NCBI RefSeq assembly: GCF_016901575.1 | Contig: NZ_JACJKQ010000015.1 | Coordinates: 1-54,283, forward strand | Reading direction: 5' to 3' | Length of the DNA stretch: 54,283 bases | From: Enorma phocaeensis | Lineage (GTDB): Bacteria > Actinomycetota > Coriobacteriia > Coriobacteriales > Coriobacteriaceae | Shown here: in pieces, positions 46,105 through 54,283 of the stretch | How the letters are laid out: each line of letters starts with the position of its first letter | How positions within the stretch are numbered: position 1 is the stretch's first letter | Notes under the pieces: model-generated | What the model saw: only the letters and a program-made list of their open reading frames with translations | Databases searched by the model: none | Told to the model about the DNA's origin: nothing | Position numbers and translations under genes: made by a program

Positions 46105-46283
46105 GGGTGAAATCCCTTCGTGTAACGGCGCAGCGACGGCGCCTGTGACAAACGCTTTCAACAACGCGGCATGTCGCCGCAAGCATCCCACATAATACCC
46201 GATGCCGAGACACTCTTGGCAAGATGCGGCTCCATAACACGCCATGTCGATTTATGCCGGGCAAGACGCCCCGCGTCGCACGT

Positions 46284-46384
46284 CTCCCTGCGTCGCGCAC
46301 CCTCCTGGCCAGCCCTCGTCGGAGCCACGTATTCTCACAGGCCCACGCCGAAGCTACGTCTTTTTACAAAACTGGCCCCGAAAA
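46284..46384. repeat. 101-bp direct repeat, left copy
   Basis: Identical over 101 bases to 54069-54169, with weaker similarity further left. The two copies bracket the PTS operon and its regulator, 7.7 kb apart. The right part contains the CAAAACTGGCCCC core also seen near 52950 in a diverged form. Confidence 0.95.
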
Positions 46385-46407
46385 CGAAGAAAAACCGAGC
46401 TTCGGCG

Positions 46408-46454
46408 AAAAAGAGGGGCGCCGTCGCTCGAAGAAGACCGAGCGACGGCGCCCC
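46408..46454 (-). terminator. Terminator of the mannose-family PTS operon
   Basis: GGGGCGCCGTCGCTCG and its complement form a 16-bp perfect stem with an 8-base loop, followed on the minus strand by TCTTTTTC. It lies about 200 bases after btpA, the last operon gene. A close relative of this hairpin ends the GntR gene at 52993-53037. Confidence 0.85.
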
Positions 46455-46657: not shown

Positions 46658-47455
46658 CTAGCCCTTGGCCTGCTCTAAGAAGATCCGGGCTCGGTCGGGG
46701 TCGATGGGGTTTTTCATGTCGCCGTTTTTAATCCACGTGGCAACCGAAACGCCGTCGTAGTAGCGCATGAGCTCGCGCACGTTGTCTCCCGTGGCGCCCC
46801 CACCGAGGAAGATGGGGGTGTCGGGCACCCGGCGCCTGGCCTCTTGCACCATCTGGATGCTCTCGGCGGGCGTCTTTCCCGACATGAACAGGCCGTCTGC
46901 AAACGCCTCGTGCACGCACTCCCATGCGGCGTCGCCCACCGGCTTGGGGCACAGCGGCACGCCGTGCACCTCGTAGACGTCGGCAAACACGGGGACCGTA
47001 GAGCCGGTGCGCTTGCGCAGCTGGGCGATTTCGACGCACTGGGCCTCGAGGATGCCGGCGCTTGTGACGTTGGCCCCGGTAAACAGGTGCTCGACGCGAA
47101 CAAAGTCGGCCCCCACCGCGTCGGCGACCGAGAGGCCCGCCACGCCGTCCCAATTCATAAGGATGCCCATCACGAGCTCGGGAAAGCGGACGCGGATCTC
47201 ATGGGCGATGCGCGTCATATAGGCGATGGCCTCGGGGTTTGCTATCTGCTTCACCGGCATGTCGTTCATGTTCTGAACGATGATGCCGTCAAAGCCGTTT
47301 CTCGCCACCATCTCGGTCTCGCGCAGCGCTCGGTCGACGATCTCTGCGATCTTCATGTCGCGATGGCGATAGCTGCCCGGAAGTGGGTCGGGCTGAATCA
47401 TCGAGAAGATGAGCTTCTCTGAGCGGGAGAGCACCCGCGATGCTGCTGCAGCCAT
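46658..47455 (-). CDS. BtpA/SgcQ family protein
   Basis: 265 residues of the BtpA family, TIM-barrel proteins including E. coli SgcQ. Seen are SMIQPDPLPGS at the start, GFDGIIVQNMNDMPVKQ, ILMNWDGVAGL, FVRVEHLFTGANVT and the phosphate-binding-like GGGATGDNVRELM near the end. Biochemical function is unproven for the family; SgcQ occurs with PTS genes. Last gene of this PTS operon, one base after the eIF2B-like gene, so it probably acts on a phosphorylated intermediate. Confidence 0.85.
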   Translation of the reverse strand: MAAAASRVLSRSEKLIFSMIQPDPLPGSYRHRDMKIAEIVDRALRETEMVARNGFDGIIVQNMNDMPVKQIANPEAIAYMTRIAHEIRVRFPELVMGILMNWDGVAGLSVADAVGADFVRVEHLFTGANVTSAGILEAQCVEIAQLRKRTGSTVPVFADVYEVHGVPLCPKPVGDAAWECVHEAFADGLFMSGKTPAESIQMVQEARRRVPDTPIFLGGGATGDNVRELMRYYDGVSVATWIKNGDMKNPIDPDRARIFLEQAKG

Positions 47456-47456
47456 G

Positions 47457-48461
47457 TCAGTCGGCTCCTTCCTGGTCGTTTGTGCCCATGCCTTCGTGCA
47501 GATAGGCGCTATAGCTCATCGCCGTATCAAACATCTGCATCGCGGGGATGACGCCCCGCTCGGTGACGAACGCGCGAATCTGCTCAGGCGGCACGCCGAT
47601 GAGCTCGGGCACCGTGAAGTTCACGCCGTCGGTCGCAAGGTCGCTCCCCCAGCCGGCGCTCAGCTTGTGCGTCAGGTCGTCGTACACCAGGCGCTTGCCC
47701 CCGCCATAGACGGGACGCGTGTCGAGCTTGATGAGCGGCGTCAAGAAATAGAGCGGGACGCCGAGGTGGGCGCAGAGCACCCCCACGATATCCGAGCCTG
47801 TGGTGTTAAAGCCGGTCCCATCGGGATAGAACGTCTCAGCCCCCATGAAGGCGGCGTCGCAATCCTTGAGGAAATACATCATCGCCGCCTCGGGGATGAA
47901 GGTGACCGCATGTCCGCACTCTTGGCACGCACGCACGAAAGGCTTGCCGCCGTCGATGATGCGGCTCTCGGGAATCACCACCTCGCGAGGACCGCCCTCG
48001 GCGATGCCGCGCAAAAACTTCTCGACCGTACTCGAATAGTCGTAGACGAAGACCCTCTTCATGGGGCTCGCCAGCGCCACGGCGTAGCTGACGCAGGTCG
48101 AGATCGCTCGGGCCGCCTCGGCGGCATAGGCGTCTTTCGCCTCGATGATTCGCGCCGCGGCCTCGTCGGAACCGAGCCGCGCACAGGCATCGATGCCGCG
48201 GATCATGATAAGGACCGCGTTGCTCACCGCCTGGCTCGCCTCGCCGCGCGTATCGATGAAGAACTGGGCGACCGCCTTGACATCGCCCACGATGTCTTCG
48301 GCTGGACGCGCCTGCTCGGCACCGCGGCGAGCGACGGCCTCGATCATCTCCCCGATGAGGGAGATGTGCTTGCTTGCCCCCAGGATGCTCTGGTCGACGA
48401 TGCCGTCGAACGACGCGCGCACGCTCTCGGGCAGAAGCGCCCTCACCTCGTCGCTTCTCAT
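47457..48461 (-). CDS. eIF2B-like sugar-phosphate isomerase
   Basis: About 334 residues of the eIF2B alpha/beta/delta family, which includes MtnA and ribose-1,5-bisphosphate isomerase. The C-terminal half shows the Rossmann-like core: KRVFVYDYSSTVEK, VIPESRIIDGG and GFNTTGSDIVG. The position of the catalytic Asp (GAD) reads GAE here, so activity is less certain. These enzymes convert aldose-1-phosphates to ketoses, which would suit a sugar pathway. ATG 48461 overlaps the upstream amidohydrolase stop (ATGA); the longer frame is not used. Confidence 0.82.
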   Translation of the reverse strand: MRSDEVRALLPESVRASFDGIVDQSILGASKHISLIGEMIEAVARRGAEQARPAEDIVGDVKAVAQFFIDTRGEASQAVSNAVLIMIRGIDACARLGSDEAAARIIEAKDAYAAEAARAISTCVSYAVALASPMKRVFVYDYSSTVEKFLRGIAEGGPREVVIPESRIIDGGKPFVRACQECGHAVTFIPEAAMMYFLKDCDAAFMGAETFYPDGTGFNTTGSDIVGVLCAHLGVPLYFLTPLIKLDTRPVYGGGKRLVYDDLTHKLSAGWGSDLATDGVNFTVPELIGVPPEQIRAFVTERGVIPAMQMFDTAMSYSAYLHEGMGTNDQEGAD

Positions 48462-49219
48462 GAGACGACCTCCCTCGAAGCCGCGGCCTCCCGCGCCTGG
48501 CGGGCCAACACGGCGCCGTTCTCCTCGAACGTGAGGCGCCGGAACTCGTCGTCCACCCCGATCGTGTCGAACACGTCGAGCGAGCACTTTGTCAGGCGCT
48601 CGGGCCACATGGACCCAAATACCAGCCTGTCGCGAGGTGCCGCGTTCACCGCCTTGCGCAGGATCTGCAGCTCGTACTGGTTGGACGTCTCAAGGTAGAG
48701 ATTGGGAACCTCGCTCGCCAAGTCGATGCAGCCATAGCCGTAGTCAAAGCACCCCATATGCAGGAAGACGAAGGGGATGGAGGGATGGCGGCGAACGTGC
48801 CCCATCCACTGCTGGGGCATGGATCGAGACCCGATGCCGCAGAACACCTTCACCGGCACGCCGCGGCGCTCCGCCACGTCAAGGACCCCCTCGACGCCGG
48901 GGCAGCTGTCGGGATAGTAGCCGTCCTCAAGCGAGTTGAGCTCGAGCATGCCCATGCCGGGAAGGGAGAGCGCCCGCTCCGCAGCCTCGGCCGCGCCCTT
49001 CGCCTTGGCGTTTACCACCGCGCAGCCCAGCAACGCGTCAGGATGGCGCCCGACGAGATCCGACACATAGGCATTGCCCTCGTCGTAGTCCCAGCCGTCC
49101 AGCGCCGAGACCACGCGCAGCCCGATGCCGTTGCGCTCCATGTCGCGGAGCAGCGCCTCCTCCTCGGCATGCTGGTCAGCCGGGTTGCACCGGATGTGGG
49201 CGTGAATGTCGATAATCAT
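48458..49219 (-). CDS. Amidohydrolase_2 family protein with degenerate metal site
   Basis: 253 residues of the PF04909 TIM-barrel family (decarboxylases and lactonases). HxH is present (DIHAHI, His6 and His8), and His154 lies in FVFLHMG. But the second-sphere His is replaced: VFCG at 125-128 stands where its paralogue has MHVG, and FGSMWP at 201-206 replaces FGTDWP, so the key Asp is Met204. It may be inactive, or use fewer metals. It is the paralogue of the intact enzyme at 51909 in the same operon. Coupled to the eIF2B-like gene by overlap. Confidence 0.8.
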   Translation of the reverse strand: MIIDIHAHIRCNPADQHAEEEALLRDMERNGIGLRVVSALDGWDYDEGNAYVSDLVGRHPDALLGCAVVNAKAKGAAEAAERALSLPGMGMLELNSLEDGYYPDSCPGVEGVLDVAERRGVPVKVFCGIGSRSMPQQWMGHVRRHPSIPFVFLHMGCFDYGYGCIDLASEVPNLYLETSNQYELQILRKAVNAAPRDRLVFGSMWPERLTKCSLDVFDTIGVDDEFRRLTFEENGAVLARQAREAAASREVVS

Positions 49220-49230
49220 CTTGCCCGCTC

Positions 49231-50082
49231 CTAGCCCAAAATGCCCAGATACACGCCGGCGATGCCAATGACCATGGTGATGAGGATGAGCTTGACCGCC
49301 GAGATCTTCTTCTTGGTGATGAGCACGTACATGAGCAGCGTGTAGAGCACGCCCAGAAGGCCGGGGACAAGCCCGTCGAGGGTCTGCTGGATGTTCAGGA
49401 CCGAGTCGCCGCTACCGATCTCGATGGGGATGTTGATGATTACCAAGCCGGGGATGAAGCCGCCCACGATGGTATAGGCCGCGATCGCGGCGAGGTCGGA
49501 GATCTTGTCGATCAGACCGCTCGACTGAATCTTGGCAACGAGCTTGACGCCCTGCTTGTAGCCCTGGAACACGCCGAAGTAGCGCACGCCCAGCGAGACG
49601 ATGCTCATGCCGATCACGAAGAAGAGCACGCCGAACCAGCCCAGGCCGGCCTGGATAAAGGAGATGGCAAGGCCAGCAAGAATGGGGCGGGCGGTGCCGT
49701 TGAGCAGCGAGTCGCCGATGCCGGCGAGCGGGCCCATGAGGGCGGTCTTCACCGCATTGATCGAATCGGGGTCGATATCGCGCTGCGTGGCATAGCGCTC
49801 TTCCATAGCGGCGGCGACGCCCACGGGGATGGCGGACGTGATGTCGTTGGTGAGGAAGTACTCCATATGGCGCTCGTACGCCTCGCGCTTTTCCTCGGGA
49901 TCGTCGTAGTACTTCTCGACGACCGGCATCATGGCCTGCGTGAAGCCGGCATTCTGCTGGCGCTCGTAGTTGTTGGCGCAACGGATGGTGAGCTGGTTGC
50001 GAAATACCTTCCACAGCTCCTTGTTGGTAAGCTTCGGGGTCTCCTCGGCCTGGACCTCGGAAGTGGTGACCTGGTCAGACAT
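49231..50082 (-). CDS. PTS mannose-family EIID
   Basis: 283 residues. It begins with an acidic leader, then TNKELWKVFRNQLTIRCANNYERQQNAGF, typical of EIID. The core has GIGDSLLNGTARPILAGLA and three or four membrane segments. With EIIC it forms the membrane channel of mannose/fructose/sorbose-type PTS. It lies 18 bases after EIIC in the minus-strand operon. Confidence 0.94.
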   Translation of the reverse strand: MSDQVTTSEVQAEETPKLTNKELWKVFRNQLTIRCANNYERQQNAGFTQAMMPVVEKYYDDPEEKREAYERHMEYFLTNDITSAIPVGVAAAMEERYATQRDIDPDSINAVKTALMGPLAGIGDSLLNGTARPILAGLAISFIQAGLGWFGVLFFVIGMSIVSLGVRYFGVFQGYKQGVKLVAKIQSSGLIDKISDLAAIAAYTIVGGFIPGLVIINIPIEIGSGDSVLNIQQTLDGLVPGLLGVLYTLLMYVLITKKKISAVKLILITMVIGIAGVYLGILG

Positions 50083-50100
50083 ATCGATCGACTCCCCTCT

Positions 50101-50847
50101 CTAGTTCCTGTCGTCGGCGAGGACGAAGTAGTAGTACATGGCGACGCCCACCACGGCGACGAGCGCGATGCCCACCATGTTCATGCCGAAGTAGGATGCG
50201 AAGATGAAGCCCAGCAGGAAGAAGGGCCAGAACTTGCGCGCCTTGATGGACGAGAGCAGCAGCGCAAAGCCCACGGCGCCGATCATGTTGCCGCCCACGG
50301 AAAGGCCGGTGATGATCTGGTCGGGAATGGCGTCGATGATCGCCTGGACATAGTCGGCGCCCAGATAGATGGCCAGGAACGTGGGCAGGCCATAGAGCAG
50401 CGCGTTGAACGCCATGGGCAGGATCGTGTTGTTGAGCACGATGCCGTGCCTGTCGATCTTCTCGACCGCCGCCTCGACGCGATGCATGAAGAACACGTTG
50501 ATGATGGAGTTCTGGAACGTGGTGGCCATCTGGCCGATCACCGATACGGCAAGGGCCGTGGCAACGGCGGTCTCGGTTCCGCCGCCGCCGAGGATGGCGA
50601 TGCCCGTAGCGATTGCCGTCGAAATGGTGGGATCGGGCGGATTCGCCGTACCGACGAAGATGACCGCAAGGAACATCATCTCGACCTGCACGCCTACGGT
50701 GAAGCCGGTGGCGACGTCGCCCATGATGAGGCCGACCACGGGACCGACGACGATGGGCCTGAAGATATGGGTTTGGGCCGTATGGGAATCGATGAAGGCG
50801 ATGGTCACGAAAGCCGCGACGAGCAGCGCCTGTACCAATAAACTCAT
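50101..50847 (-). CDS. PTS mannose-family EIIC
   Basis: 248 residues with about eight hydrophobic segments, from MSLLVQALLVAAFVTIAFID. The family motif RPIVVGPVVGLIMGDVATG and the IGTANPPDP-like loop place it in the EIIC sorbose/mannose group. Works with EIID, EIIB and EIIA of the same operon to import a sugar or sugar derivative. The gap to EIIB is 42 bases. Confidence 0.94.
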   Translation of the reverse strand: MSLLVQALLVAAFVTIAFIDSHTAQTHIFRPIVVGPVVGLIMGDVATGFTVGVQVEMMFLAVIFVGTANPPDPTISTAIATGIAILGGGGTETAVATALAVSVIGQMATTFQNSIINVFFMHRVEAAVEKIDRHGIVLNNTILPMAFNALLYGLPTFLAIYLGADYVQAIIDAIPDQIITGLSVGGNMIGAVGFALLLSSIKARKFWPFFLLGFIFASYFGMNMVGIALVAVVGVAMYYYFVLADDRN

Positions 50848-50889
50848 GTCACACCTCCATATGGTGAACGTAATCTAGGAGAGACGCCG

Positions 50890-51378
50890 TTAGACGAGGC
50901 CGTTCTTCTTAAGCAGGTCCATGACGTCCTGGCTGCGCTCGTTGGGCACGGCGCGAACCTCGGCGGTGACGCCTTCGGCGTAGAGCTCCTTGAAGGTCTC
51001 AACGTCCTCGGGGAAGACCCAGAAGTTGCCCAGGACCTTGGTCTTGCCCTTTTTCATGTTCATGTTGCCCACGTTGATGGTGTGGTCCTTAAGGCCCGAG
51101 CGCACCAGCTCGAGCGCCTGCTGCGGACCGCGCACGAGAAGGAGCGCGCGACCGGCGGCATCCGGATTGGCGATGAGCGCCTTGGCGTCCTCGACCGGAA
51201 GCACCTCGAGCTTGACGGTGTTCGGCGTCGCCATTTGCAGCAGCGTGCGCTGGAACTCATCGGAGGCGGCCTTGTCGTCTGCCACCACGACGGTATCGGC
51301 ATCGGCGTTGGCGATCCACGCGGTCACAACCTGGCCATGAATCAAGCGGTCATCGATGCGAAAGACTCCTACCTGCAT
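50890..51378 (-). CDS. PTS mannose-family EIIB
   Basis: 162 residues. The phosphorylated His is in FRIDDRLIHGQVVTAW, the family signature. VRGPQQALELVRSG and the NVGNMNMKKGK segment follow. ATG 51378 follows GGAAAGGATGG; the upstream extension has no support. A 135-bp gap with three hairpins separates it from EIIA. Confidence 0.94.
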   Translation of the reverse strand: MQVGVFRIDDRLIHGQVVTAWIANADADTVVVADDKAASDEFQRTLLQMATPNTVKLEVLPVEDAKALIANPDAAGRALLLVRGPQQALELVRSGLKDHTINVGNMNMKKGKTKVLGNFWVFPEDVETFKELYAEGVTAEVRAVPNERSQDVMDLLKKNGLV

Positions 51379-51394
51379 TTCTTCCATCCTTTCC

Positions 51395-51468
51395 CGGGGC
51401 GCTCGCCCCGCACCGCCCGCCGGTACCACCGGCAGGCATCCCCTTGCGCCCCCGAGGCGCCGCAAGGG
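51395..51468. promoter_or_regulatory. Cluster of hairpins between EIIA and EIIB genes
   Basis: Three stems are seen: CGGGGC/GCCCCG (51395-51410), GCCGGT/ACCGGC (51419-51433) and CCCTTGCG/CGCAAGGG (51441-51468). They lie within the operon's only long internal gap. They may set relative amounts of EIIA and EIIB by processing or partial termination. Confidence 0.45.
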
Positions 51469-51513
51469 TCCAACCTATCCGACGGCGGACCCGCCGCCGG
51501 GCATTCCGGCCGT

Positions 51514-51909
51514 CTAGATCTCGCTCAACCCGATGCTCTCCGCCGTCTTGCCGACGATGTCGTCTACCAGCTCATTCAAAGAGAGCTCCTGGGGAGCAGA
51601 GAGGACCAGCGCCTCGATGACCACGGGAAGGTTCATCCCGTAGATCACCGCGACGTTCTCGTTCTTAAAGGAGAACTTCGAGACCACGTTGAACGGAGTG
51701 CCGCCCTTGAGGTCGCAGAACACGAGCCACTGGTTGTCGTCCGAGGTGTCGGACAGCTTCTGGGCGTAGAGCTCCTCCAGCTCCTCGGCGCCCATTTCCT
51801 CGGCGAAGGTAACCACCTCGAGATGCTCTTGCTCGCCAATGAGCATCTTCACCGACTGCACCATGCCCTCTGCCATGGTGCCGTGGGACGTGAGCAGAAT
51901 CTTGATCAT
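51514..51909 (-). CDS. PTS mannose-family EIIA
   Basis: About 131 residues. The N terminus IKILLTSHGTMAEGM carries the phosphorylated His10-type residue of the EIIA-Man fold. WLVFCDLKGGTPFNV is the second conserved segment. ATG 51909 overlaps the amidohydrolase stop (TGATG), so expression is coupled. It receives phosphate from HPr and passes it to EIIB. Confidence 0.94.
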   Translation of the reverse strand: MIKILLTSHGTMAEGMVQSVKMLIGEQEHLEVVTFAEEMGAEELEELYAQKLSDTSDDNQWLVFCDLKGGTPFNVVSKFSFKNENVAVIYGMNLPVVIEALVLSAPQELSLNELVDDIVGKTAESIGLSEI

Positions 51910-52655
51910 CAGCCCTCCATTCTCCATAGGTACTCTGCGTTGCGATGAAAGATGAACTCGAGCTTGTCGCTCGGAATCTCCAGCTCAAAGAACTTCTCGA
52001 CCTCGATGTTTACCGGCTTGTACGGCCAATCGGTGCCGAAGCACACCCGGCGCTCGCCCAGCACGTCGATTGCACGAAGAAGCACGTCGACGTCCATCTG
52101 GCCGGACGTCTCGACCCACACGTTGGAAAGGTCGCGAACCGCCTCGATGGTCGACTGGCCAAACTCGTAGTAGCCGATATGGGTAAACAGGAAGTCGATC
52201 TTGGGGAAGCGCTTCGCCCAGACCGCCCAGGTATACGGCGTCGAGAACGGGGCGGTTCCCACATGCATCTGCACATGGACGCCATAGGGCTCGATCGCCT
52301 CGAAGATCTCTTGGAGGGCGGGCGTGTTGTCGGGATAGTATCCATGCTTCCATGAGTGGAACTTCACGCCGTCCATCTTGAGCTCGCCCAGGCAGCGATG
52401 CACCTCGTCGATGGCATCCGGCGCCTTGGGATTGATGAAGGCATAGTTTTTGATCTGATCGGGATGCGCCTGCTTGGCACGGTGCACCAGATCGTTCTGA
52501 GCCCGCATCGAGGTGCCGGAAAGGCTGCTGATGCCCACCTTGCTGATTCCATACGCGTCCAGGTCGGCGAGCATCTCCTCCGGCGTGTTCTCCTCTCCCG
52601 AACTGGTCTTGCCCAGATGGGAGTGGATGTCGTAGATGAGATAGTCCTTGCCCAT
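51909..52655 (-). CDS. Amidohydrolase_2 family metal-dependent hydrolase
   Basis: 248 residues of PF04909. The metal site is complete: His11 and His13 in DIHSHLG, His131 in QMHVG, His159 in FTHIG and Asp209 in FGTDWP. Family members include lactonases and decarboxylases. As first gene of the PTS operon it may open a ring or remove an acyl group from the imported compound. AAAAAGGAGG precedes ATG 52655. A degenerate paralogue is encoded at 48458. Confidence 0.88.
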   Translation of the reverse strand: MGKDYLIYDIHSHLGKTSSGEENTPEEMLADLDAYGISKVGISSLSGTSMRAQNDLVHRAKQAHPDQIKNYAFINPKAPDAIDEVHRCLGELKMDGVKFHSWKHGYYPDNTPALQEIFEAIEPYGVHVQMHVGTAPFSTPYTWAVWAKRFPKIDFLFTHIGYYEFGQSTIEAVRDLSNVWVETSGQMDVDVLLRAIDVLGERRVCFGTDWPYKPVNIEVEKFFELEIPSDKLEFIFHRNAEYLWRMEG

Positions 52656-52684
52656 GCTCCCTCCTTTTTCGTCATTTAATTATT

Positions 52685-52697
52685 ACGTTATAACTTT
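52685..52697. promoter_or_regulatory. Candidate GntR operator before the PTS operon
   Basis: ACGTTATAACTTT matches ACATTATAACCTT, upstream of the GntR gene, at 11 of 13 positions. It lies 30 bases before the first operon gene, in an AT-rich promoter-like stretch. Confidence 0.5.
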
Positions 52698-52933
52698 AAT
52701 ATGTTTAATTCAGAGAACCGTCAATATTCAGCTGGCAAATGAGCCGCAGCCGGTTGGTTTTTGCTGGTGAACGGCATGGATTTGACGGCGCTCGCGCCCG
52801 CGCGCCCACCCGAGTGGCCGTGAGTCCATGGAACGCCCGAGAAGACGTTGCGCAAACATCCGGGCAGGTAGCGCCAGAAAACGCCCCGCCTCAGCACTTT
52901 CACCCTACCGGCCCGGACCCGGCGGCGCCGCAC

Positions 52934-52992
52934 CAAAGCTACGTCTCTTTACAGAATTGACCCCAGAAACGAACAATTACCGAGCTTCGGCG
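52934..52992. repeat. Diverged palindromic repeat next to the GntR terminator
   Basis: AAAGCTACGTCTCTTTACAG and the following bases to ACCGAGCTTCGG resemble 46349-46404. Both copies directly abut a near-identical terminator. It is a third, diverged member of the repeat seen at 46284 and 54069. Confidence 0.75.
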
Positions 52993-53037
52993 AAAAAAAG
53001 GGCGCCGTCGCTCCAACGTTCGTGAGCAACGGCGCCC
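52993..53037 (-). terminator. Terminator of the GntR gene
   Basis: GGGCGCCGTCGCTC pairs with GAGCAACGGCGCCC (one mismatch) and is followed on the minus strand by seven T residues. It lies 124 bases after the GntR stop. It shares its stem with the terminator at 46408-46454. Confidence 0.88.
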
Positions 53038-53161
53038 TGGGGGCAACACATGATGATGGAGGGCGACAAAGGGGCCGCATGCCGTGCGGGAACGATCGCG
53101 CTCGCTGGCCCCCGGCCCATGCCATGCTGGCTGCCGCACGCCGCCCGGGAGCGGACGTGCC

Positions 53162-53899
53162 CTATGCGAGCACGAGTTCGACCTTGTATCGGTAGTACTC
53201 GGGGTTGTAGAACATCTCGACGTATTCAAACGGCTTGCCGTCCGAGGTGCGCGTCACCCGCTCTTTGTAGAAGATGGCCTGGCCGTGCGGCATCCCGAGC
53301 TCGTCCATGACATCCCCCTCGGGCTCGCGCACCTCGAGGACTTCCGAGGCGGAGCCCGGCACCACGCCGCGAATCTTGAGCAGCTCGTAGAGCGAGGCGT
53401 CGGGCGTGAACTCCTCGGCTGAAAGAGAGAGCCCGTCGATGCGACGAATGTAGGCGCGATGGAAGCCGACCACCACGTTGGTGCGGAAGCGCTTGCGCTC
53501 GATAAGGTATACGCGCTCGTCACGCTTGATGTGCAGCAGGCCCGCGATGTGCTCGGTCGGCTCGATCTCGGCGAAGCCCACGAGCTCTGCGCTGGGTCGG
53601 TCGCCGTACAGCTGAGCGTCATCGGTAAAGCTCGTCAGCTTCGCAATGTCGTAGTCGTGCTTGGAACCAGAGATGATCGTGCCGCGCTTGCCGCGGTGCT
53701 TCTCAACCAAACCCTCCTGGGCGAGCATCTCCACCGCTCGGCGAACCGTGATGCGGCTCACGTCATAAATCTTTTCAAGCTGAGGCTCGGGAGGGAGCCT
53801 GTCTCCCGGGGCAAGCGCTCCAGACTGAATGCGCTTGAGCAGGTCAAGGTACATCTGATAGTGCAAAGGGACTTTGATGTTGCGATCGATCAGGGCCAT
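53162..53899 (-). CDS. GntR/UTRA regulator of the PTS operon
   Basis: 245 residues. The winged helix (residues 8-75) has RLPPEPQLEKIYDVSRITVRRAVEML, and the UTRA domain follows, with ERVYLIERKRFRTN and the C-terminal FEYVEMFYNPEYYRYKVEL. UTRA proteins sense phosphorylated sugars. It is the gene directly upstream of the PTS operon and shares an operator-like sequence with it, so it probably represses both. ATG 53899 is the first start in frame. Confidence 0.9.
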   Translation of the reverse strand: MALIDRNIKVPLHYQMYLDLLKRIQSGALAPGDRLPPEPQLEKIYDVSRITVRRAVEMLAQEGLVEKHRGKRGTIISGSKHDYDIAKLTSFTDDAQLYGDRPSAELVGFAEIEPTEHIAGLLHIKRDERVYLIERKRFRTNVVVGFHRAYIRRIDGLSLSAEEFTPDASLYELLKIRGVVPGSASEVLEVREPEGDVMDELGMPHGQAIFYKERVTRTSDGKPFEYVEMFYNPEYYRYKVELVLA

Positions 53900-53942: not shown

Positions 53943-54068
53943 ACGGCATTTCATCATAATCTAGCACGATTGCCTGCGGGTAGATACCCATCTGCCCGGG
54001 ATGATTCAAAATATGTGACCCCTACGCCATATCGGTCGATGCCAGCCCGGATACCGCGCGCCGCACAC

Positions 54069-54169
54069 CTCCCTGCGTCGCGCACCCTCCTGGCCAGCCC
54101 TCGTCGGAGCCACGTATTCTCACAGGCCCACGCCGAAGCTACGTCTTTTTACAAAACTGGCCCCGAAAA
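54069..54169. repeat. 101-bp direct repeat, right copy
   Basis: Identical to 46284-46384. Similarity ends abruptly after CCCCGAAAA at 54169, where the left copy continues into the palindrome and terminator. The following TGTTGAAG suggests insertion of a mobile element at this point. Confidence 0.95.
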
Positions 54170-54283
54170 TGTTGAAGTTTTTTGAAAATGTCACCCCCAG
54201 AGACGTCGCGCCGCGTCATCCGCGCATCTTCCTGAGCAGGTCCTGCAGCTCCCTCTGGTTCCCCACGAGGTCGCTCTTCCTGT
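54170..54283. mobile_element. Probable end of an insertion element
   Basis: Starting TGTTGAAGTTTTTTGAAAAT and then GTCACCCCCAG, this sequence interrupts the 101-bp repeat family and leads to the 3' end of a minus-strand reading frame at the window edge. TG-starting termini are usual for IS21-type and related elements. The rest lies outside the window, so the family is not settled. Confidence 0.45.
54216..54283 (-). CDS. 3' end of a reading frame, possible transposition gene
   Basis: Reading leftward from the edge, one frame gives about 21 residues ending VGNQRELQDLLRKMRG and TGA at 54216-54218. It is partial, too short to identify, and placed just inside the presumed element end, where a transposase or helper gene would be expected. 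Confidence 0.35.
   Translation of the reverse strand, partial: RKSDLVGNQRELQDLLRKMRG

Follow-up and report, generated by a model that had tools for sequence, protein, structure and literature searches.

We describe a catabolic operon of Enorma phocaeensis (Coriobacteriia) that is real, conserved and recurrent in unrelated gut bacteria, and apparently undescribed. It lies on the minus strand at 46658-53899 of the window (the whole stretch of 54,283 nucleotides of contig NZ_JACJKQ010000015.1 that was analysed), where a GntR/UTRA regulator gene is followed by eight genes in the order AH1-IIA-IIB-IIC-IID-AH2-IF2B-BtpA. AH1 and AH2 are two PF04909 proteins, IF2B is an eIF2B-like protein, and the four II components are those of a mannose-family phosphotransferase system (PTS). 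We think it probable that this is an inducible, PTS-fed operon for the catabolism of a carbohydrate-like compound. The original prediction, made from the DNA sequence, had called it a candidate undescribed pathway, and this holds insofar as searches of the accessible literature on the gene combination, on BtpA/SgcQ and on PF04909 proteins with a PTS turned up no such pathway; as subscription papers are mostly outside that literature, this is weak evidence of absence.

A conserved gene set and its variants

The locus holds nine intact open reading frames (ORFs). Families were called with Pfam gathering cut-offs and NCBIfam/TIGR cut-offs, and all members of the predicted set are present: BtpA (183.8 bits), IF-2B (70.6 bits), Amidohydro_2 twice (62 and 116 bits), EIID-AGA, EII-Sor, PTSIIB_sorb, EIIA-man and GntR with UTRA all exceed the Pfam cut-off. 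The probable ATG start of IIA overlaps the stop of AH1 (TGATGATCAAG), there is a 4-nt overlap of AH2 with IF2B, and 1 nt separates IF2B from BtpA; the starts of IF2B and IIB are to be trimmed to 48461 (MRSDEV) and 51378 (MQVGV), respectively. Tight junctions and gene order support the claim of a single operon. The ratio of nonsynonymous to synonymous substitution rates (dN/dS) between close homologues is 0.01-0.21 for all genes, indicating purifying selection on every one of them.

An IF2B orthologue was found at seven other loci, in Coriobacteriia and Lachnospirales and thus in two phyla, and every one of these loci also holds AH1, AH2, PTS IIB/C/D and BtpA. Four of them form clade A and have the full set in the same order, with 56-97% identity: Collinsella sp. 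An2 (L007), a Coriobacteriaceae metagenome-assembled genome (L008), Lachnospiraceae IMSAGC_002 (L009) and a second genome of the latter's order (L022). A second clade, B (L012, L013, L023), has the same genes at about 34-58% identity (lower for IIA), with IIA relocated behind BtpA in L012 and L013, and IIB/C/D placed across GntR, on its other side, in L023. Gene trees broadly agree in separating the two clades. Co-occurrence in other genomes, on which the original prediction had staked itself, is therefore found in other genera and in another phylum, with gene order kept in clade A. The set is rare, being present in 5 of 396 Coriobacteriia, in 3 of 392 genomes of the order of L009, and in a single genome, that of L009 itself, among the 398 sampled from its phylum. 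Among about 392 Coriobacteriia, the genomes with AH2 orthologues (E < 1e-100) are precisely the five that have IF2B. A weaker IF2B match, in G910 (E 7e-31), belongs to another cluster and was excluded from the orthologues. One scan of genome contigs, using one protein and no alignment, found only three loci and understates the spread.

In L007 and L008 the operon lies between dnaX and ybaB-recR, which are close neighbours in four genomes where no IF2B orthologue was found (G239, G195, G048 and G163; L034-L037). The window shares the ybaB-recR side, but its contig stops short of dnaX. On either side of the operon, at 46239-46391 and 54024-54176, is one copy of a 153-nt direct repeat (89% identity); these are its only two full copies in the genome, neither was found in L007 or L008, and the repeat may mark an insertion or duplication of the operon. 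The high identity of AH1 (78-80%) and IID (82%) to their Lachnospirales counterparts suggests that the operon may have passed between phyla.

Smaller and different versions of the cluster also exist. In two Coriobacteriia (G194 and G303) and in G419, from the Lachnospirales sample, the cluster consists only of IIB-IIC-IID, a BtpA-family gene and an AH1 of 46-51% identity, with IIA seen, among these, in G419; the BtpA gene of G303 is an ORF that resembles the G194 protein and gave no match to the window's BtpA, and the G419 contig stops about 180 nt past the BtpA match. At L050 (8580-12388) and L051 (8242-12007) the minimal IIB-IIC-IID-AH1-BtpA cluster is flanked by genes read as purM and purN, and an RpiR-type regulator lies on the far side of purN. 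Plasmid pC708_1 of Klebsiella pneumoniae (CP067510.1; L056, 9013-14736) carries AH1-IIA-IIB-IIC-IID-AH2-ADP-ribosylglycohydrolase-GntR, that is, the same order up to AH2 and a GntR/UTRA regulator, but an ADP-ribosylglycohydrolase stands where IF2B and BtpA would be, and the AH2 has lost all four His ligands (N, T, T and G at these positions). It is the sole plasmid record found with this cluster; no relatives of IF2B were found on plasmids, and the E. coli genomes searched gave no match to the minimal AH1-BtpA DNA or to the Klebsiella variant.

Across these clusters the PTS and AH1 are constant and BtpA is frequent; AH2 belongs to an extension, together with either IF2B or an ADP-ribosylglycohydrolase. 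Because some genomes have only the PTS, AH1 and BtpA, AH2 and IF2B look like an add-on and not like obligatory steps, which weakens the linear route of import, hydrolysis and isomerisation that had been envisaged.

Altered active sites in AH2 and IF2B

In AH1, residues H11, H13, K98, H131, H159 and D209 are conserved in all ten aligned loci, so that the HxH motif, the His of strand beta5, the His of beta6 and the Asp of beta8 expected of an active member are complete. These columns we take to be the metal ligands, from knowledge of the PF04909 fold. AH2 does not have the complete set: the beta5 His is lost in all nine loci (Phe in eight, Thr in one), and eight of the nine have Met, Ser or His in place of the beta8 Asp, the window's protein having Phe at beta5 and Met at beta8. 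Because the strand-5 His and strand-8 Asp are lost, AH2 is probably a pseudoenzyme partner. It nonetheless evolves under purifying selection despite the missing ligands (dN/dS 0.08 and 0.14, computed with the stop codon carried by the L008 slice skipped).

Aligned with ribose-1,5-bisphosphate isomerase (R15Pi) of Pyrococcus horikoshii, IF2B has Asp141 at the position of C135 and Glu209 at that of D204, both invariant in the eight loci, and therefore has neither the Cys nor the Asp that we take, from family knowledge, to be catalytic in R15Pi. Structures of the corresponding P. horikoshii mutants are deposited, according to their PDB titles, as 5yfs (C135S) and 5yft (D204N). The IF2B model (predicted local distance difference test, pLDDT, 84.4) finds its nearest folds in R15Pi and eIF2B subunits, R15Pi being the best match (template modelling score, TM, 0.68-0.72), whereas the 46.6 bits to TIGR00511 fall far under the cut-off of 314 bits. 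A canonical MtnA/R15Pi activity is disfavoured by the changed catalytic residues. The original prediction had spoken of two hydrolases and an isomerase; neither label finds support in that form, AH2 having lost metal ligands in every orthologue and IF2B being altered at both positions of its family's catalytic pair.

It could still be that AH2 and IF2B are true enzymes of altered chemistry, providing two hydrolytic steps and an isomerisation as first proposed, AH2 on a reduced or different metal site (His-x-His and the beta6 His) and IF2B as an isomerase with an Asp/Glu acid-base pair. We regard this as rather doubtful. HxH and the beta6 His are retained in eight of nine AH2 proteins, three clade-B members have His at beta8, the invariant D141 and E209 of IF2B could take on acid-base work, and all genes are under purifying selection; however, Met, Ser or His at beta8 offer no constant substitute, all four His are gone from the Klebsiella AH2, and the IF2B substitutions differ from the R15Pi pair.

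A role of IF2B as a sugar-phosphate sensor or scaffold similar to eIF2B-alpha, through which the level of intracellular sugar phosphate would tune AH1/AH2 or the PTS, appears unlikely. Sugar phosphates including fructose 6-phosphate bind the ancestral catalytic pocket of eIF2B-alpha, a non-enzymatic relative whose phosphate contacts have diverged from those of MtnA (PMC8187479). The ability of this pocket to hold sugar 6-phosphates would fit a PTS product and also counts in favour of the pathway proposed below; the altered catalytic pair and the existence of a minimal variant without IF2B are in line with a sensor. On the other hand, no partner or regulatory effect is known, GntR/UTRA is already expected to do the sensing in the operon, and it is an enzyme family, ADP-ribosylglycohydrolase, that occupies the place of IF2B in the Klebsiella variant.

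An eIF2B-like protein that keeps GADT, not the Cys, is found in a different cluster (L027, 7353-9359 and 15039-17988), together with genes for a PsuG-like pseudouridine glycosidase (as read), a PfkB-like kinase, an ADP-ribosylglycohydrolase (Pfam), a nucleoside-type ABC transporter and GntR.

BtpA belongs to the BtpA/SgcQ family (TIGR00259, 186.3 bits against a cut-off of 153.4) and scores below the cut-off for the photosystem I biogenesis proteins (NF045918, 149.6 against 400 bits). Its model (pLDDT 81.5) is a TIM barrel, and the top Foldseek matches, phosphoribosylanthranilate isomerase (PRAI), ribulose-5-phosphate epimerase and tryptophan synthase alpha (TrpA), at TM 0.5-0.6, are all generic TIM barrels; they are consistent with phosphate binding and do not indicate a particular reaction. 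A sequence search for solved relatives gave none, save a marginal and fragmentary TrpA-like match, and no settled enzymatic function for BtpA/SgcQ was found in the searchable literature. BtpA/SgcQ genes also lie beside carbohydrate kinases (PfkB, FGGY) and ABC transporters on plasmids of Pantoea dispersa (L057, 7068-9460) and Rhizobium (L058, 6974-9270), so that the family recurs next to different phosphorylating systems.

The PTS is of the mannose family, with IIA, IIB, IIC and IID all present and the phosphorylation-site His kept in IIA and IIB. An N-acetylgalactosamine/galactosamine PTS was rejected as its identity on the AgaF, AgaW and AgaE scores (97.6 against 130, 171.8 against 300 and 135.8 against 500 bits). 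That this is a known operon of that type with unusual hitch-hiking genes is very improbable: AgaF and AgaW are the best NCBIfam matches of IIA and IIC, but every Aga score is below its equivalog cut-off, the operon has no Aga deacetylase, isomerase, kinase or aldolase, and its IID shares 56% identity with the IID linked to AH1 in Klebsiella and at most 39% with the other IIDs among the plasmid matches listed.

Regulation and a possible pathway

The putative signals are listed with the genes in Table 1. The candidate promoter is missing from the list of the consensus scan because TATTAA does not end in T. The candidate operator lies directly downstream of it and just upstream of AH1, and is the sole genomic site with at most one mismatch to TTATAACGTAATAA. 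Two relatives (G018 and G064) have an exact operator-like site at the same place, and in L008 the site is a perfect palindrome, TTATAACGTTATAA. GntR is followed, at about 53003-53037, by a T-rich hairpin, which suggests that the regulator is a transcription unit of its own, apart from the eight-gene operon. Of the seven other IF2B loci, six have a GntR orthologue next to the set; the L009 contig begins at AH1. An Rfam scan of the window gave tRNA only, so no riboswitch of a known family.

Table 1. Genes and putative regulatory signals of the operon, in window coordinates
Feature	Position	Strand	Basis
GntR/UTRA transcriptional regulator	53162..53899	-	PF00392 + PF07702
Candidate promoter TTGACG-17-TATTAA	52696..52724	-	By eye from sequences; equal spacing in L007 and L008
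Candidate GntR operator TTATAACGTAATAA, 14 nt, between GntR and AH1	52680..52693	-	Genome search
AH1, PF04909 metal-dependent hydrolase, metal site complete	51909..52655	-	Pfam; residues conserved in 10/10 loci
PTS IIA, mannose family; His of TSHG kept	51514..51927	-	PF03610
PTS IIB; His of RIDDRLIHGQ kept in 8/8 loci	50890..51378	-	PF03830
PTS IIC	50101..50847	-	PF03609
PTS IID	49231..50082	-	PF03613
AH2, PF04909 paralogue, degraded metal site	48458..49219	-	Pfam; residue alignment
IF2B, eIF2B/MtnA/R15Pi family, altered catalytic pair Asp141, Glu209	47457..48461	-	Pfam; alignment; fold match
BtpA/SgcQ family, predicted phosphate-binding-type TIM barrel	46658..47455	-	PF03437, TIGR00259; model; Foldseek
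Strong intrinsic terminator, 17-bp stem + T-run, after BtpA	46415..46454	-	Terminator scan

In the catabolic pathway that we propose, GntR would bind the single operator and keep the operon repressed until its UTRA domain takes up an inducer. Mannose-family PTSs import their substrates and phosphorylate them on a primary hydroxyl, and the PTS described here, with its active His present, would do the same. AH1, with its intact metal site, would hydrolyse (or, less likely, decarboxylate) the phosphorylated compound, and AH2 would most likely be a non-catalytic partner of AH1 or a substrate binder. IF2B may then bind, and would probably rearrange, the resulting sugar phosphate at C1/C2 via the Asp/Glu pair and not a Cys/Asp pair, and BtpA would carry out the last step, giving an intermediate of glycolysis or of the pentose phosphate pathway. 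The PTS, AH1 and BtpA would form a core that AH2 and IF2B extend. The imported compound is perhaps a C1-substituted sugar, as the ADP-ribosylglycohydrolase that replaces IF2B and BtpA in Klebsiella hints at chemistry at the anomeric carbon, where both families act.

The most specific form of this proposal is an undescribed PTS-fed pathway common to gut bacteria of more than one phylum. Its active metal hydrolase would act together with an inactive but obligate paralogue, and a C1-substituted sugar 6-phosphate would be the substrate of a new reaction carried out by an eIF2B-family protein with an Asp/Glu pair. We advance this form tentatively, as a possibility. Several observations count against the proposed pathway as a whole. 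AH2 and IF2B are dispensable in some clusters; the Klebsiella variant has no annotated BtpA nearby, so BtpA is not universal; no IIA was found near the L023 set; the nearest solved structures of AH1 are decarboxylases, which makes hydrolysis by AH1 less than certain; and the idea of a C1-substituted sugar is based on one plasmid and on family generalities.

Significance and comparison with known systems

PTS-fed operons set what gut bacteria can eat. In the operon described here, a hydrolase paralogue and an eIF2B-family protein have lost their usual catalytic residues yet are kept under strong selection, and the existence of minimal and extended variants makes their roles separable. The substrate, once found, would assign a function to BtpA and would test a bacterial eIF2B-like protein as an enzyme versus a sugar-phosphate binder.

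Besides R15Pi and the Klebsiella plasmid cluster, two known systems come close. The dihydroxyacetone phosphate (DHAP) shunt for 5-deoxypentoses (MtnK-MtnA-Ald2) is likewise encoded by a catabolic cluster in which an eIF2B-family protein handles a sugar phosphate (PMC10986504), but it is kinase-fed, uses the canonical isomerase MtnA, and is without PTS, PF04909 protein and BtpA, whereas IF2B is without the catalytic pair. The E. coli sgcABCEQX genes combine PTS genes with SgcQ, a member of the same family as the operon's BtpA, and a putative zinc-dependent hydrolase; their substrate was still unassigned in 2026, and deletion mutants had no growth phenotype in that study (PMC13343008). They differ in having no PF04909 and no eIF2B-like protein, and in encoding the epimerase-like SgcE and the putative zinc hydrolase SgcX, families that are both absent from the proteins of the E. 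phocaeensis operon.

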